The notes beneath the pieces are model-generated. The model had not been told where the DNA came from. It saw only the letters and a program-made list of their open reading frames with translations, and did not search any database. From NCBI RefSeq assembly GCF_002723995.1, contig NZ_BEWP01000001.1, positions 434,001-498,000 of the forward strand: 64,000 bases of DNA, written 5' to 3'. Below are positions 6,745 through 11,288 of the stretch, in pieces. The number at the start of each line of letters is the position of its first letter. The stretch's first letter is position 1. Made by a program: the position numbers and the translations under genes. This DNA is from Gluconobacter kondonii (GTDB lineage: Bacteria > Pseudomonadota > Alphaproteobacteria > Acetobacterales > Acetobacteraceae).

Positions 6745-7167
6745 ATGCCCATCAAACTAGACCCCGCACTCCTCCCTGCCCTGAATATCCTTGGCATGGC
6801 CCAGTCCGGCGCCCTTTTGCGTGCTGAACGGGAGACACCATCAGATGGTATTCCCGCCTTCGTCACCCTAGCAGGCTGGGATGAACTCGCAGCGACACAT
6901 GCTGCAAACCACGATGCTCCTCACAATGTGCTTCTTCCGGCACTCGAAAAAGCTGTCGCCCGTATTCTAACTCACGCTGCCCAAAACGCGTCGCAGACGG
7001 GTGAAATGACGCCTGTCATCACGATTCAAAGCGATCTTTTTCCCAGCGACCCTGATCTGGTTCTGGCATTCGTCCGTGATAGCACCCATCCCGTAGCCTG
7101 CGCCCTGATTGGCACAGCCACGCAGATCGAGGCAGCACTCCGTGGGCGGGACGCTGCTCAGGACTGA
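6745..7167 (+). CDS. Hypothetical protein next to fliJ
   Basis: 140-residue soluble protein from the ATG at 6745 (MPIKLDPALLPALNIL); the frame opens at 6709, but that overlaps the preceding hairpin. It is rich in Ala and Leu and has two conserved-looking blocks, GIPAFVTLAGWDELAATHA and SDPDLVLAFVRDSTHPVACALIG. No family is recognised. Its 3' end overlaps the 3' end of the convergent fliJ-like gene by ten bases. Confidence 0.65.
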   Translation: MPIKLDPALLPALNILGMAQSGALLRAERETPSDGIPAFVTLAGWDELAATHAANHDAPHNVLLPALEKAVARILTHAAQNASQTGEMTPVITIQSDLFPSDPDLVLAFVRDSTHPVACALIGTATQIEAALRGRDAAQD

Positions 7168-7583
7168 CTGAACTGGCGAATGGCCAGTTCATCCAGCGCA
7201 TTCTGTTCTTTTTTGAGTTCCGCCTGCCGTTCTTCTTCCTGCCGCTCCTCTTTCAGAGTTTTAACGGCTTCCATAGCAGCTCTCGCGATAATCAGTGCCG
7301 AGCGCACGGTTTCTCGATCCAGCGCGGCTTCGCGGCAACGCGCCTGCGCTTCCGTAACAGCCTTGCGCCCCGCAGGAAGCCAACGGCTGAAGGCTTCCAC
7401 AGCACCATCCCCCGCTGTTGGACTGGAGGCGATCCGCTGTTCACTCAGGATTTCTTCCTGAGCTGCCGACAGCTTTTCTTCAGCGGCTGCCTCACGCGCG
7501 ACGGCCTCTGCGAAACTTCTTTCAACAAGATCAAGTTCCTGTGCACGCAGGGCGATGAGAGTATCGAGGGGTGACTGTTCCAT
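7158..7583 (-). CDS. fliJ: FliJ-like flagellar export protein
   Basis: 141-residue, almost wholly helical protein lying directly downstream of fliI. Heptad-rich segments such as LDLVERSFAEAVAREAAAEEKL and TLKEERQEEERQAELKKEQ indicate a coiled coil, as in FliJ, the stalk-like chaperone that joins the FliI ATPase to the FlhA export gate. FliJ sequences diverge strongly, so the assignment rests on position and coiled-coil nature. The ATG at 7583 (MEQSPLDTL) has AAGGA nine bases upstream; an earlier ATG at 7607 would overlap the fliI end. Confidence 0.78.
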   Translation of the reverse strand: MEQSPLDTLIALRAQELDLVERSFAEAVAREAAAEEKLSAAQEEILSEQRIASSPTAGDGAVEAFSRWLPAGRKAVTEAQARCREAALDRETVRSALIIARAAMEAVKTLKEERQEEERQAELKKEQNALDELAIRQFSQS

Positions 7584-7596
7584 CCTGAAGAATCCT

Positions 7597-8955
7597 TCAT
7601 GCCGCATTCAAAGGAGTGGTTTGCGGAATTGTCTGCATAATTTGTGCGAGCTGTTCAAAAGCCTCTGCACGTGTGGATCGCTCGTTGCGCCCCTGAAACA
7701 GGAACTGGTTCAACCTGGGCATCAATGCGATAGCCTCGTCAACCTCACGATCCGTGCCTGACTTGTAAGCGCCAAGCCGGATCATATCCGCCATACGCTG
7801 ATAGGTCGCCATTGCTGAGCGCGCGCGTTGAGTAAGGGCGTTTTCCTCAGAGGAATTGCACCCCGGAACCGCCCGGGACAGAGAGCGCAAAACATCAATC
7901 GCGGGATAACGTCCCTGTTCGCCAATCTTGCGATCCAGAATGATATGGCCATCCAGAATACCGCGCACCGCATCCGCAACCGGCTCGTTCTGATCGTCGC
8001 CCTCTACCAGAACGGTGAAGAGAGCCGTAATCATCCCCTGATCGGGGTATCCCGGCCCTGCGCGCTCCAGAAGTCGAGGCAGTTCGGCAAACACGGAAGG
8101 CGGATAGCCACGCGTTGCAGGAGGCTCACCCGCAGAGAGACCGATTTCACGCAACGCCATGCAAAACCGCGTCACACTATCCATCAGAAGCAGAACCGAC
8201 TTACCCTGATCCCTGAAATACTCTGCAATTGTCATGGCAGACAGGGCTGCCTCACGACGCATTAGCGGAGGTGAATCCGATGTTGCGATCACAAGAACGC
8301 TCCGGGCCAATCCTTCGGGGCCAAGATCGTCCTCAATAAACTCACGAACCTCACGTCCACGCTCCCCCACGAGCGAAATCACGGCGACATCACACTCCGC
8401 TCCTCGCGCAAGCATGGAAAGCAGTGTCGATTTCCCAACACCCGATCCGGCAAACAGTCCAAGTCTCTGGCCGCAACGAGATGTTGTGAACGCATCCAGA
8501 GCCCGTACCCCAAGATCCATCCGCTCTCCCAAGCGTGCCCGACTTGCCGCGTTAGGCGGAGAGCACTGAATCGCTTGGCGTGAAGTTGAAGGCAGCAAAG
8601 GCCCTTTTCCATCAATCGGCTGCCCTAACGGATCCACCACTCGTCCAAGCCAGCTTGAATTAATACTCAAGCCACCATCATGACGATTGAGAGGCACCCG
8701 AGCCTCACAACCCGGACCAATACCGTCCAGCGCGCCGAAAGACATTAACCGTGCAGCGTTGCCTTGAAATCCCACAACCTCAGATTGTACCACCCGACCA
8801 TCACGAGCCATAACCGCGACTCGATCTCCAATCGTGATGAATCTCTCGAGTCCAACGACGGTTATGCAAAGGCCAACAACGTCCTTCACGCTTCCCCTAA
8901 CCCAGTCACAACTGAGGTTTGAGAGCATTTCAAGCAGTCTGGCGTAATTGCTCAT
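7597..8955 (-). CDS. fliI: Flagellum-specific ATPase of the type III export apparatus
   Basis: About 452-residue F1-beta-like ATPase that energises export of flagellar subunits. The P-loop GLFAGSGVGKST is at residues 166-177, Walker B VLLLMDS ends at about 260, and the FliI/YscN block GEPPATRGYPPSVFAELPRLLERAG follows. The ATG at 8955 (MSNYARLLEMLSNL) gives the usual family length; a GTG at 9000 would add 15 basic residues. It diverges from ctrA, and a perfect CtrA box sits in the shared promoter region, which suggests CtrA control of fliI-fliJ. No other flagellar genes are in the window. Confidence 0.95.
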   Translation of the reverse strand: MSNYARLLEMLSNLSCDWVRGSVKDVVGLCITVVGLERFITIGDRVAVMARDGRVVQSEVVGFQGNAARLMSFGALDGIGPGCEARVPLNRHDGGLSINSSWLGRVVDPLGQPIDGKGPLLPSTSRQAIQCSPPNAASRARLGERMDLGVRALDAFTTSRCGQRLGLFAGSGVGKSTLLSMLARGAECDVAVISLVGERGREVREFIEDDLGPEGLARSVLVIATSDSPPLMRREAALSAMTIAEYFRDQGKSVLLLMDSVTRFCMALREIGLSAGEPPATRGYPPSVFAELPRLLERAGPGYPDQGMITALFTVLVEGDDQNEPVADAVRGILDGHIILDRKIGEQGRYPAIDVLRSLSRAVPGCNSSEENALTQRARSAMATYQRMADMIRLGAYKSGTDREVDEAIALMPRLNQFLFQGRNERSTRAEAFEQLAQIMQTIPQTTPLNAA

Positions 8956-9017
8956 AGCAACAGTTTTTGACCGTTTTCTGCGGGTTGTTTCAACTTTCAC
9001 ACCCTACAACCGCATAG

Positions 9018-9032
9018 TTAATATGACCTTAA
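9018..9032. promoter_or_regulatory. CtrA box, full TTAA-N7-TTAA site
   Basis: TTAA at 9018-9021, seven spacer bases (TATGACC), then TTAA at 9029-9032: an exact match to the alphaproteobacterial CtrA consensus. It lies in the divergent promoter region, 63 bases from the fliI ATG and 113 from the ctrA ATG. A one-mismatch version of the TTAACCAT half site (GTAACCAT) is at 9111-9118. Binding would couple flagellar export genes and ctrA itself to CtrA. Confidence 0.7.
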
Positions 9033-9144: not shown

Positions 9145-9888
9145 ATGCGTATCCTTCTTGTCGATAGCGATCAGTCCGCCGCCACCACGTTATCCCAGAC
9201 CCTGCGTAATGCATCTTTTACTGTCGATCATACGCCATCTGGTGAAGAGGCCATCGAGATGCTGCGTCATTACGACTATGACGTGGTTGTGCTGGAACTG
9301 ATGCTGAACGATCTGGAAGGATACGAAGTCATCCGACGTGTCCGGGCAGCCCGTATCACAACACCGATCCTCGTCCTCTCGGCCCTGCTCCGTTCTCAGG
9401 CCAAAATTCGTGCCTTTTCGATGGGGGCCGATGATTACATGACAAAGCCATACGATGCAGGCGAACTGGTCGCACGCCTTCAGGCTGTCATGCGACGCTC
9501 CCGTGGATTTGCGGAGCCGAAGCTGCGAGTGGGGAATCTGGAACTGGATCTGAACGGCAAAAATGTTACCGTCGATGGCGCGCCACTGCATTTGACAGGC
9601 AAAGAGTATGCCATTCTGGAATTGCTCGTAATCCGTAAAGGATCCGTCCTGACCAAAGACGCGTTTCTTAACCACCTTTATGGTGGCATTGATGAGCCAG
9701 AAATGAAGATCATTGACGTCTTCATCTGCAAATTACGTCGAAAATTACAGAATGTTGGTGCAGGCAACCTGATCGCGACCGTTTGGGGACGTGGTTACAT
9801 CCTGCGAGAAGAGGATGTCGCAGAAACTGTTGCCCTTGCGAGCCTGCACCCTAAAACTTCTACTCATGTTCTCGAAGCGGCAGTCTGA
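9145..9888 (+). CDS. ctrA: CtrA-family response regulator with Glu at the phosphoacceptor site
   Basis: 247-residue OmpR/PhoB-class regulator closely resembling Caulobacter CtrA across the DNA-binding half (LTGKEYAILELL, FLNHLYGGIDEPEMKIIDVF). In the receiver, the acceptor Asp51 is Glu (codon GAA, VVVLELML), and the acidic pair preceding it is D7-S8 instead of E-D, so one Mg-binding Asp is missing. The switch Ser (VLSALL) and Lys (DDYMTKPY) remain. D51E in Caulobacter CtrA is a known phosphomimetic, so this protein may be constitutively active. In related alphaproteobacteria with non-essential CtrA the regulon is motility, in line with the fliI neighbour. The ATG is preceded by GGGAG. Confidence 0.93.
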   Translation: MRILLVDSDQSAATTLSQTLRNASFTVDHTPSGEEAIEMLRHYDYDVVVLELMLNDLEGYEVIRRVRAARITTPILVLSALLRSQAKIRAFSMGADDYMTKPYDAGELVARLQAVMRRSRGFAEPKLRVGNLELDLNGKNVTVDGAPLHLTGKEYAILELLVIRKGSVLTKDAFLNHLYGGIDEPEMKIIDVFICKLRRKLQNVGAGNLIATVWGRGYILREEDVAETVALASLHPKTSTHVLEAAV

Positions 9889-9929: not shown

Positions 9930-11288
9930 TCAAACATGAGCAATGGCGCGAATGACATCGCAGACATGATCCACCACTTCATGGACGAGCGTCTCATCCT
10001 CCGCCTCCACCATAACGCGGATCAGCGGTTCTGTTCCACTCGCACGCAGGACGAGGCGGCCACTCCCGGCCAAGCGTTCATCTGCCCAGGCCTTTGCTGC
10101 GGCGAGGTCCGGGCTCCCCATTGGACTGGTTCCTGAGTAGCGGACGTTTTTCAGGAGTTGCGGATACGGTGTGAAAAACCGGCAGATTTCACTGGCCGAC
10201 CGTTTAGTTTCCACAGACACGGCCAAAACCTGTAAGGCGGCGATCAGACCGTCTCCTGTCGTGGCATAATCCGACAAAACCATATGTCCGGATTGCTCAC
10301 CCCCGAGATTGGCCCCAATCTCGCGCATCCGCTCTACAACATAACGATCGCCAACCGATGTCCGCTGAAGCTCAAGCCCCTTTTCCGCCAGAGCTTTTTC
10401 CAGCCCCATATTGGACATCACGGTCGTAACCACCGTGTTGCCGCGCAACCGGTCATGCTGCTTCCAGAAGGAAGCAATCAGACCGATGATCTGGTCTCCA
10501 TCAACGAGATCGCCATTTTCATCCGCAATCAGGACACGGTCCGCATCGCCATCCAGAGCAATGCCGAAATCCGCACCATGTTCTCGCACCGCGGCACATA
10601 GGGTTTCCGGATGGGTCGATCCCACGCCGTCATTGATGTTCAGGCCATCCGGCTCACAACCGATCTTGATGACCTCTGCCCCCAGTTCCCACAATGCTTT
10701 GGGAGCCACGCGGTAAGCAGAGCCATTGGCGCAATCAATGACAATTTTCAGGCCATCCAGACGCAACCCACGTGGGAAAGACGCCTTTGCATTCTCGATA
10801 TAACGCCCCGCCGCGTCCGTCAGACGGGAAGCGCGTCCAATCCGTTCGGGAGAGGCCAGTCGGGCGGAAAGATCCTGAGCCATCAGGCCTTCGATTTCGC
10901 CTTCAACTTCGTCCGAAAGTTTGAAACCATCCGGCCCGAACAGCTTGATCCCATTATCCGTAAAAGGATTGTGGGACGCTGAGACCATGACCCCAAGATC
11001 GGCCCGGAGAGAACGGGTCAGCATGGCGATCGCAGGCGTGGGTAGCGGACCAACCAGAATGACGTCCATCCCTGCTGACAGAAAACCAGCAACCAGAGCA
11101 CATTCCAGCATATAACCCGAAAGGCGCGTATCCTTGCCCAGAACGACGCTGTGCCGGCGGTTCTGGCTCCGCATGAAGTACAGACCGGCCGCCTGCCCCA
11201 GTCTCTGCGCGATTTCAACCGTCATGGGCGCAGTATTGGCCGTTCCCCGGATGCCATCAGTACCGAACAGAGACCTCTTGGTGGCCAT
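9930..11288 (-). CDS. glmM: Phosphoglucosamine mutase
   Basis: 452-residue alpha-D-phosphohexomutase that converts glucosamine-6-phosphate to glucosamine-1-phosphate for UDP-GlcNAc, peptidoglycan and LPS. The active-site phosphoserine loop VSASHNP is at 102-108, the Mg-binding DGDADR motif follows at about 244, and the C-terminal phosphate loop reads [16 protein letters not shown]. The N-terminus [15 protein letters not shown] is characteristic. It follows ftsH on the same strand with a 96-base gap, an arrangement also known from other bacteria. Confidence 0.97.

Follow-up and report, generated by a model that had tools for sequence, protein, structure and literature searches.

An aspartate-less CtrA in Gluconobacter

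The gene at positions 9145..9888 (+ strand) of the window, the 64-kb stretch of Gluconobacter kondonii DNA analysed here, is best explained, judging by its sequence, as Gluconobacter's orthologue of CtrA converted into an atypical, aspartate-less response regulator. We consider it probable that this protein acts independently of phosphorylation, through dimerisation, DNA binding and control by its amount. The ctrA reading frame begins with ATG and encodes 247 aa (MRILLVDSDQ...DYDVVVLELMLNDLEG...), in which Pfam recognised a Response_reg receiver (residues 3-112; 9151..9480, + strand) and a Trans_reg_C DNA-binding domain (residues 146-220; 9580..9804, + strand), the receiver plus OmpR/PhoB winged-helix architecture of CtrA. 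The top NCBIfam family was NF045991 (CtrA, Rhodobacter type) at 326.6 bits, under its cut-off of 350, and the next family scored 164 bits.

Position 51 corresponds to the conserved Asp column in the alignment of Acetobacteraceae CtrAs, and codon 51 of the window gene, GAA (9295..9297, + strand), places Glu at this phospho-acceptor position. Codon 8 is AGC (9166..9168, + strand), with Ser replacing a metal-binding Asp; residues 7-9 thus read D-S-D, and the acidic pair, canonically D8/D9, is S8, D9. An earlier reading made from the letters alone (the sequence-only reading) had called both substitutions as well as the conservation of the DNA-binding domain, and all three were confirmed, the last by the Trans_reg_C match and the alignment. 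The protein ends in AAV (residues 245-247; 9877..9885, + strand) in place of the terminal AA. With D8 and D51 missing, the window CtrA belongs to the pseudo-receivers as defined in the consulted part of PMC12632262, that is, receivers lacking at least one of five conserved residues. The genome itself (3.27 Mb, 99.99% complete) contains one CtrA (100% identity), and its remaining response regulators are at most 37% identical, which disposes of a second canonical ctrA.

Distribution of residue 51

The nearest named relatives of the window CtrA are those of Gluconobacter (G. cadivus, 94%), and all 10 loci titled Gluconobacter carry both E51 and S8, in agreement with the earlier suggestion that this is the wild-type state. 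Among the 26 named acetic acid bacterial loci showing residue 51, Glu occurs in 22 and Ala in 4. The Glu51 loci are those of Gluconobacter (10), Asaia (3), Neokomagataea, Tanticharoenia, Brytella, Acetobacter musti, Acidomonas, Acetobacteraceae bacterium ESL0709 and three of the seven Bombella-type loci; the four Ala51 loci, also Bombella-type, are Bombella sp. ESL0385, B. saccharophila, B. dulcis and Parasaccharibacter apium. In Acetobacter musti, E51 stands beside an unaltered E7-D8-D9. D51 occurs together with D8 in seven more loci, most of them MAGs under the titles Acetobacteraceae or Rhodospirillales, with one titled Acidobacteria, and the six CtrA-like loci compared from outside the Acetobacteraceae have D51 in five cases and Ser51 in one. 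Two individual loci stand apart: the Ser51 protein, from an uncultured alphaproteobacterium (L059:3001-3675, 48% identity), also has S8 and an altered beta3-alpha3 segment, and in Bombella dulcis (L061:3001-3668) ctrA is in frame for 115 aa, with similarity extending to residue 222, reflecting a frameshift or assembly error.

A search of 230 family genomes for CtrA returned a match in 201 at E 1e-50, and a second look at 80 of these genomes returned one in 54 at 1e-42. For the census of residue 51, 160 regions were fetched and aligned, the other 69 of the 230 genomes being without a match or not fetched; together with the window's own sequence and after removal of two rows with no residue 51 in frame (G032, G086), which were left out of the tree and the counts, this gave 159 Acetobacteraceae CtrAs. 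Residue 51 was D in 107, E in 41, R in 5, A in 2, and H, N, G and S in one each. The idea that E51/S8 is a lineage trait holds mainly for one subclade, to which Gluconobacter belongs, and does not hold for the Acetobacteraceae as a whole (D in 107 of 159). In a tree of the 159 rows built without columns 7, 8, 9 and 51, one clade of 51 rows that includes Gluconobacter (SH-aLRT 98; hereafter the clade) contains E in 37, D in 10, A in 2, H in 1 and N in 1.

Outside the family, a D51 CtrA was used as the query of a class-level search, which gave matches in 152 of 230 genomes at 1e-55, and 70 CtrAs were taken from these (the 30 best and 40 spread down the list). D51 was present in 69 of these 70, a sample that is non-random and whose D51 query favours D51. 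The remaining one, in a 1.2-Mb genome (L350, genome G318), has Q8, E51 and R101 and is likely an independent case.

Apparent loss of the CckA-ChpT phosphorelay

The sequence-only reading had proposed looking for chpT and cckA in the genome. PF10090 found no ChpT there, with a positive result in the Caulobacter control. Across the family, PF10090 matched in 143 of 230 genomes at E 0.001, some matches being weak and lying in long kinase frames. We built a second profile from three family ChpTs and ran it on 80 genomes. It scored 81-164 bits in 8 of them, among which were G133 and two genomes that had been counted as ChpT-less by PF10090; in the 51 clade genomes its scores did not exceed 35.4 bits, and the matches nearly always fell within frames of kinase size, the exceptions being two, at 21.5 and 22 bits, whose frames measure 362 and 419 aa. 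ChpT was scored as present where the frame holding the best PF10090 match did not exceed 480 aa and E was no higher than 4.2e-5, and also in G164 and G027, where PF10090 alone missed a true ChpT; weaker matches or longer frames were scored as absent, and all 23 such D51 rows were retested with the family profile. By this scoring all 51 clade rows are without ChpT.

As for CckA, the window's genome has 13 HisKA matches, 12 of them above the cut-off, and five of the 13 were scanned with NCBIfam. The best CckA candidates are two CckA-like hybrid kinases with frames of 1216 aa (876 aa scanned) and 685 aa, the first scoring 277 bits with NF046026 and 292 with NF046020 and the second 261 and 283, where both models have a cut-off of 1000; these best matches appear to be other hybrid kinases, leaving no clear CckA ortholog. 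NF046026 itself was rejected as a CckA marker, because in this family it does not tell CckA from other hybrid kinases (none of 230 genomes above the cut-off, yet some match at 1e-60 in 203 of them), and was replaced by the family CckA of G197, which lies beside an flhB-like gene (named by eye). Matches to this query from ~300 to 1106 bits were taken as orthologs; no clade genome exceeded 283 bits (G181), and the best match in the window's genome had E 5.6e-73. Since the scores show no clean break around 285-300 bits, the absence of CckA is less sharp than that of ChpT. With two profiles negative for ChpT and a clear ortholog of CckA not found, the proposed uncoupling of this CtrA from the CckA-ChpT phosphorelay is well supported. 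Elsewhere in the genome (C1:299677-299838; L023:1402-1662), an 87-aa frame consisting of scarcely more than a HisKA-like helix (HDLRN), just under the Pfam cut-off and with no NCBIfam match, is perhaps an orphan dimerisation or phosphotransfer remnant.

Association of ChpT loss with loss of Asp51

Among the 159 rows, 86 have D51 with ChpT, 21 have D51 without it, one has another residue with ChpT (G133), and 51 have another residue without it (Fisher p 2e-23, kinship ignored); before correction with the family profile the corresponding counts were 84, 23, 1 and 51. D51 is thus found in 86 of 87 ChpT-positive genomes. The single exception, G133 (L152), has ChpT and two CtrA matches, and the copy examined has E51 with an intact EDD triplet. 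Outside the clade, other ChpT-less rows include those of g81 (E, 2 rows), G148 (E) and G168 (G), a long-branched group of 6 rows with R or S at 51 whose placement in the tree is unsure, and 11 rows with D51, several of which come from incomplete genomes. The CtrA-like proteins of this R/S51 group (loci L260, L261, L264 and L265-L267, genera g68, g96 and g24) also have A79 and have lost K101, and may be a more extreme pseudo-receiver.

Parsimony placed 10 changes between D and other residues on the tree and 15 residue changes at site 51. An independent-pairs test of ChpT loss against D51 loss yielded 3 pairs on well-supported branches and was not significant; the association therefore rests mainly on one ancient loss.

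Conserved and drifting positions of the receiver

In the relay-less clade the acceptor pocket has drifted, and the dimer face and the DNA-binding domain are retained. In the ChpT-positive D51 set (n = 84), D8 is retained in 83 sequences and S79 and K101 in all 84; this set was chosen for D51, so its D51 proves nothing. The relay-less clade (n = 51) retains D8 in 4 sequences, K101 in 32 (R in 13) and P55 in 19, while S or T occupies position 79 in 50. Positions 87, 96, 97, 107, 111 and 118, which we take to form the alpha4-beta5-alpha5 dimer face of OmpR-type regulators, are conserved throughout the clade, with K/R87 and E107 each in 50 of 51 sequences and D96, D97, R111, R117 and R118 in all 51; the window CtrA likewise retains K87, D96, D97, E107, R111, R117 and R118 in this region (residues 87-118; 9403..9498, + strand). 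On the tree, positions 96, 97, 111, 117 and 118 did not change within the clade, compared with 10 changes at the median receiver site, 9 at site 51 (4 of them between acid and non-acid), 15 at site 8 and 9 at K101.

At a DNA-binding-domain identity of 75-80%, receiver identity was 52% in the clade versus 71% in ChpT-positive sequences, a difference that was not seen among close pairs (>90%). For 11 Gluconobacter sequences the median dN/dS, a rough estimate given a mean dS >1, was 0.032 for the receiver, 0.025 for the DNA-binding domain and 0.64 for the tail. In Gluconobacter at least, the receiver is thus constrained and not decaying. The C-terminal AA, which serves in Caulobacter CtrA as a ClpXP signal, is present in 57 of 86 ChpT-positive D51 CtrAs versus 8 of 51 clade sequences (Fisher p 7e-9, kinship ignored).

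Genomic neighbourhood and a candidate CtrA box

ctrA is flanked by a divergent fliI-like flagellar export ATPase gene (7597..9000, - strand), which is followed downstream by a fliJ-like gene (7158..7607, - strand), and by a glmM-like gene (9930..11288, - strand), the downstream neighbour of ctrA in acetic acid bacterial loci; all three were named by eye. The fliI-like gene adjoins ctrA in loci L024-L037 and L040 and also in the D51 loci L044, L045, L046, L048 and L049, and was not found within the stretch examined in Asaia or Bombella-type loci. That the fliI-divergent arrangement is common to D51 loci supports orthology.

Between the fliI-like gene and ctrA lies TTAATATGACCTTAA (9018..9032, + strand), a candidate CtrA box that matches the motif TTAA-N7-TTAA. 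It is the sole TTAA-N7-TTAA in the 64-kb window, where 0.01 was expected and 1 of 100 shuffles had one. A box stands at the same distance from ctrA in all 10 named Gluconobacter, which are close kin, with 0 or 1 mismatch (one exact), and the seven bases inside it vary between species; outside the genus a box at that place is not general. No wider enrichment was detected: TTAA-N7-TTAAC occurred genome-wide at 10 sites, as against 10 with the motif reversed, a single palindromic position being counted twice; boxes with one mismatch numbered 3 in the window versus 1.16 expected, and the half-site TTAACCAT had 0 matches in the window. Two of the genomic TTAAC-type sites may be mentioned individually, one near a fliP-like gene (L276) and a palindromic one at C2:272512-272528 (L273/L274) whose neighbours are a gyrA-like gene and a long reading frame, the fliP- and gyrA-like genes being named by eye.

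How CtrA may act without phosphate

We lean towards the view that the relay was lost first and that CtrA then became a phosphorylation-independent, degron-free dimeric factor, with Asp51 giving way by drift to Glu, or here and there to Ala, His or Asn, and with the dimer face unchanged. At the sequence level ChpT is absent and no clear CckA remains; CtrA has shed the acceptor Asp, one metal-binding Asp and the terminal AA and has kept the dimer face and DNA-binding domain. On the explanation we favour, the receiver would act as a constitutive dimerisation module, CtrA would bind TTAA-N7-TTAA-type boxes, among them the site separating fliI from ctrA, without being phosphorylated, and output would be set by the amount of protein and not by phosphate. 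Glu51 would be tolerated and perhaps favoured, its charge probably not being the switch. If this order of events is right, a master regulator of cell cycle and motility would have become a factor controlled by abundance alone, with D51E as a natural allele. Some results weigh against the favoured explanation: the link between ChpT loss and D51 loss comes mostly from one clade, eleven D51 genomes outside it likewise yielded no ChpT, CtrA boxes are not in excess across the genome or, with one mismatch, in the window, and CckA is less sharply absent than ChpT, Brilli 2010 having reported cckA without chpT in Rhodospirillales.

A true phosphomimetic, in which Glu51 contacts Ser79 and Lys101 and locks the receiver in its active state, so that the charge is needed, we regard as unlikely, although several observations speak for it. 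Position 51 is E or D in 47 of the 51 clade rows, as would be expected if charge were needed, and this counts against the explanation we prefer; Ser or Thr fills position 79 in 50 of the 51 and Lys or Arg position 101 in 45, and among the 37 clade rows with E51, K101 occurs in 25 and R101 in 10. In the consulted parts of the literature, ctrA(D51E) is described as a stable active allele in Caulobacter when combined with a C-terminal change that stabilises the protein (PMC5189948), Glu as the commonest replacement in aspartate-less receivers and D-to-E as a partial phosphomimetic in many regulators (PMC12632262, PMC4395418), albeit one that is often insufficient (PMC4395418). The sequence-only reading had suggested that CtrA may be always on, with Glu mimicking phosphate. 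We give this the standing of a hypothesis only, given D, A, H and N at the site within the relay-less clade and R or S in a second ChpT-less group, and it is further weakened by Ala in four of the seven named Bombella-type loci (4 of 26 named acetic acid bacterial loci) and by a rate of change at site 51 that is average for the receiver. Also against it are the 9 changes of K101, the occurrence of D51 without the relay (10 of 51), and, in the sections of PMC4395418 consulted, the finding that the natural Glu of ChxR can be replaced without abolishing constitutive binding. Because of the A, H, N, R and S variants, the unexceptional pace of change at site 51 and the precedent of ChxR, phosphorylation-independent dimerisation is preferred over phosphomimicry.

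Less probable still is a regulated pseudo-receiver, in which a ligand, another modification or a partner protein would take over from phosphate the switching of CtrA. The strong purifying selection acting on the receiver is compatible with such control, as are the retention of CtrA in genomes without FlhA, which makes a function beyond motility likely, and the ligand-binding cases mentioned in the part of a pseudo-receiver review that was consulted (PMC12632262), but no candidate partner or ligand emerged from a search that covered ChpT and CckA only. An artefact or side copy (a sequencing error, a pseudogene, or a paralogue existing alongside a canonical ctrA) is scarcely credible, given E51/S8 in 10 of 10 named Gluconobacter, no second CtrA in the genome, a dN/dS of 0.03 and a position divergent from fliI equal to that of D51 ctrA, and sequencing error in particular is excluded because eleven Gluconobacter sequences agree and their median receiver dN/dS is 0.032.

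Relation to known systems

Gluconobacter CtrA shares with the canonical CckA-ChpT-CtrA output the orthologous domain pair, the conserved DNA-binding domain, the dimer face, a predicted CtrA-type box upstream of its own gene and a flagellar neighbour, whereas in Gluconobacter Asp51, Asp8, ChpT and a clear CckA are lacking and the C-terminus is AAV. By sequence it belongs among the aspartate-less regulators. A close parallel in kind is ChxR of Chlamydia trachomatis, described in the portions of PMC4395418 and PMC3960148 consulted as an atypical OmpR/PhoB response regulator with Glu at the acceptor site. Both are OmpR-type proteins with a natural Glu acceptor, and the phosphorylation-free activity known in ChxR would apply to Gluconobacter CtrA by analogy; they differ in lineage, and the ancestor of Gluconobacter CtrA is a well-known phosphorelay target of which graded intermediates survive in relatives. 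As in aspartate-less receivers and pseudo-receivers generally, so far as the consulted parts of PMC4395418 and PMC12632262 describe them, the acceptor Asp is lost, Glu is the commonest substitute and Lys-to-Arg is a common further change, but here the conversion of CtrA is clade-wide, and the word CtrA does not occur in the main text of either source.

Degeneration of the relay in this taxonomic order has been reported before. In the parts consulted, Brilli 2010 (PMC2877005) described relay members missing to varying degrees in Rhodospirillales, with cckA present and chpT not found, and Tomasch 2021 (PMC8116508) recorded ctrA, gcrA and ccrM in 72-82% of Rhodospirillales genomes and chpT, cckA and divL in 27-36%. 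Our results agree with these accounts in that chpT is missing or rare; the accounts, as far as consulted, concern gene presence, while here receiver changes accompany relay loss. Among titles and the beginnings of abstracts in open-licence PMC, we found no report of a CtrA receiver change, or specifically of a changed acceptor residue, in acetic acid bacteria; PMC2529317 and PMC12733265 mention CtrA together with an acetic acid bacterium and, in the text consulted, do not treat the acceptor residue.

The combination of lost relay, lost acceptor and lost terminal AA with strong purifying selection on CtrA, measured in Gluconobacter, amounts to a natural experiment, and the lineage separates the contribution of phosphorylation to CtrA from the role of CtrA as a DNA-binding dimer. 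Its relatives offer intermediates for escape from the kinase: D51 without the relay, E51 with an intact pocket, E51 with a broken pocket, and A, H, N or R at 51. CtrA, a classic on-off signalling protein, may in Gluconobacter and relatives have turned into a simple DNA-binding factor.

CtrA in genomes without FlhA

FlhA was searched for in 77 genomes and matched in 48. The candidate rule that E51 goes with motility was rejected, since E51 CtrA is kept in genomes without FlhA, namely in all 4 g73 genomes tested and in G135, G222, G008, G228, G101 and G070; in g60, CtrA is kept without FlhA in 3 of 4 genomes tested. The persistence of CtrA where FlhA is missing suggests that its role there goes beyond flagella. 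The window's genome itself has two FlhA-family export genes, one on C7 and a second at C2:17810-19798, beside an OmpR-type response regulator gene (C2:17038-17703; L010), and this second locus perhaps belongs to a type III secretion system or a second flagellar system.
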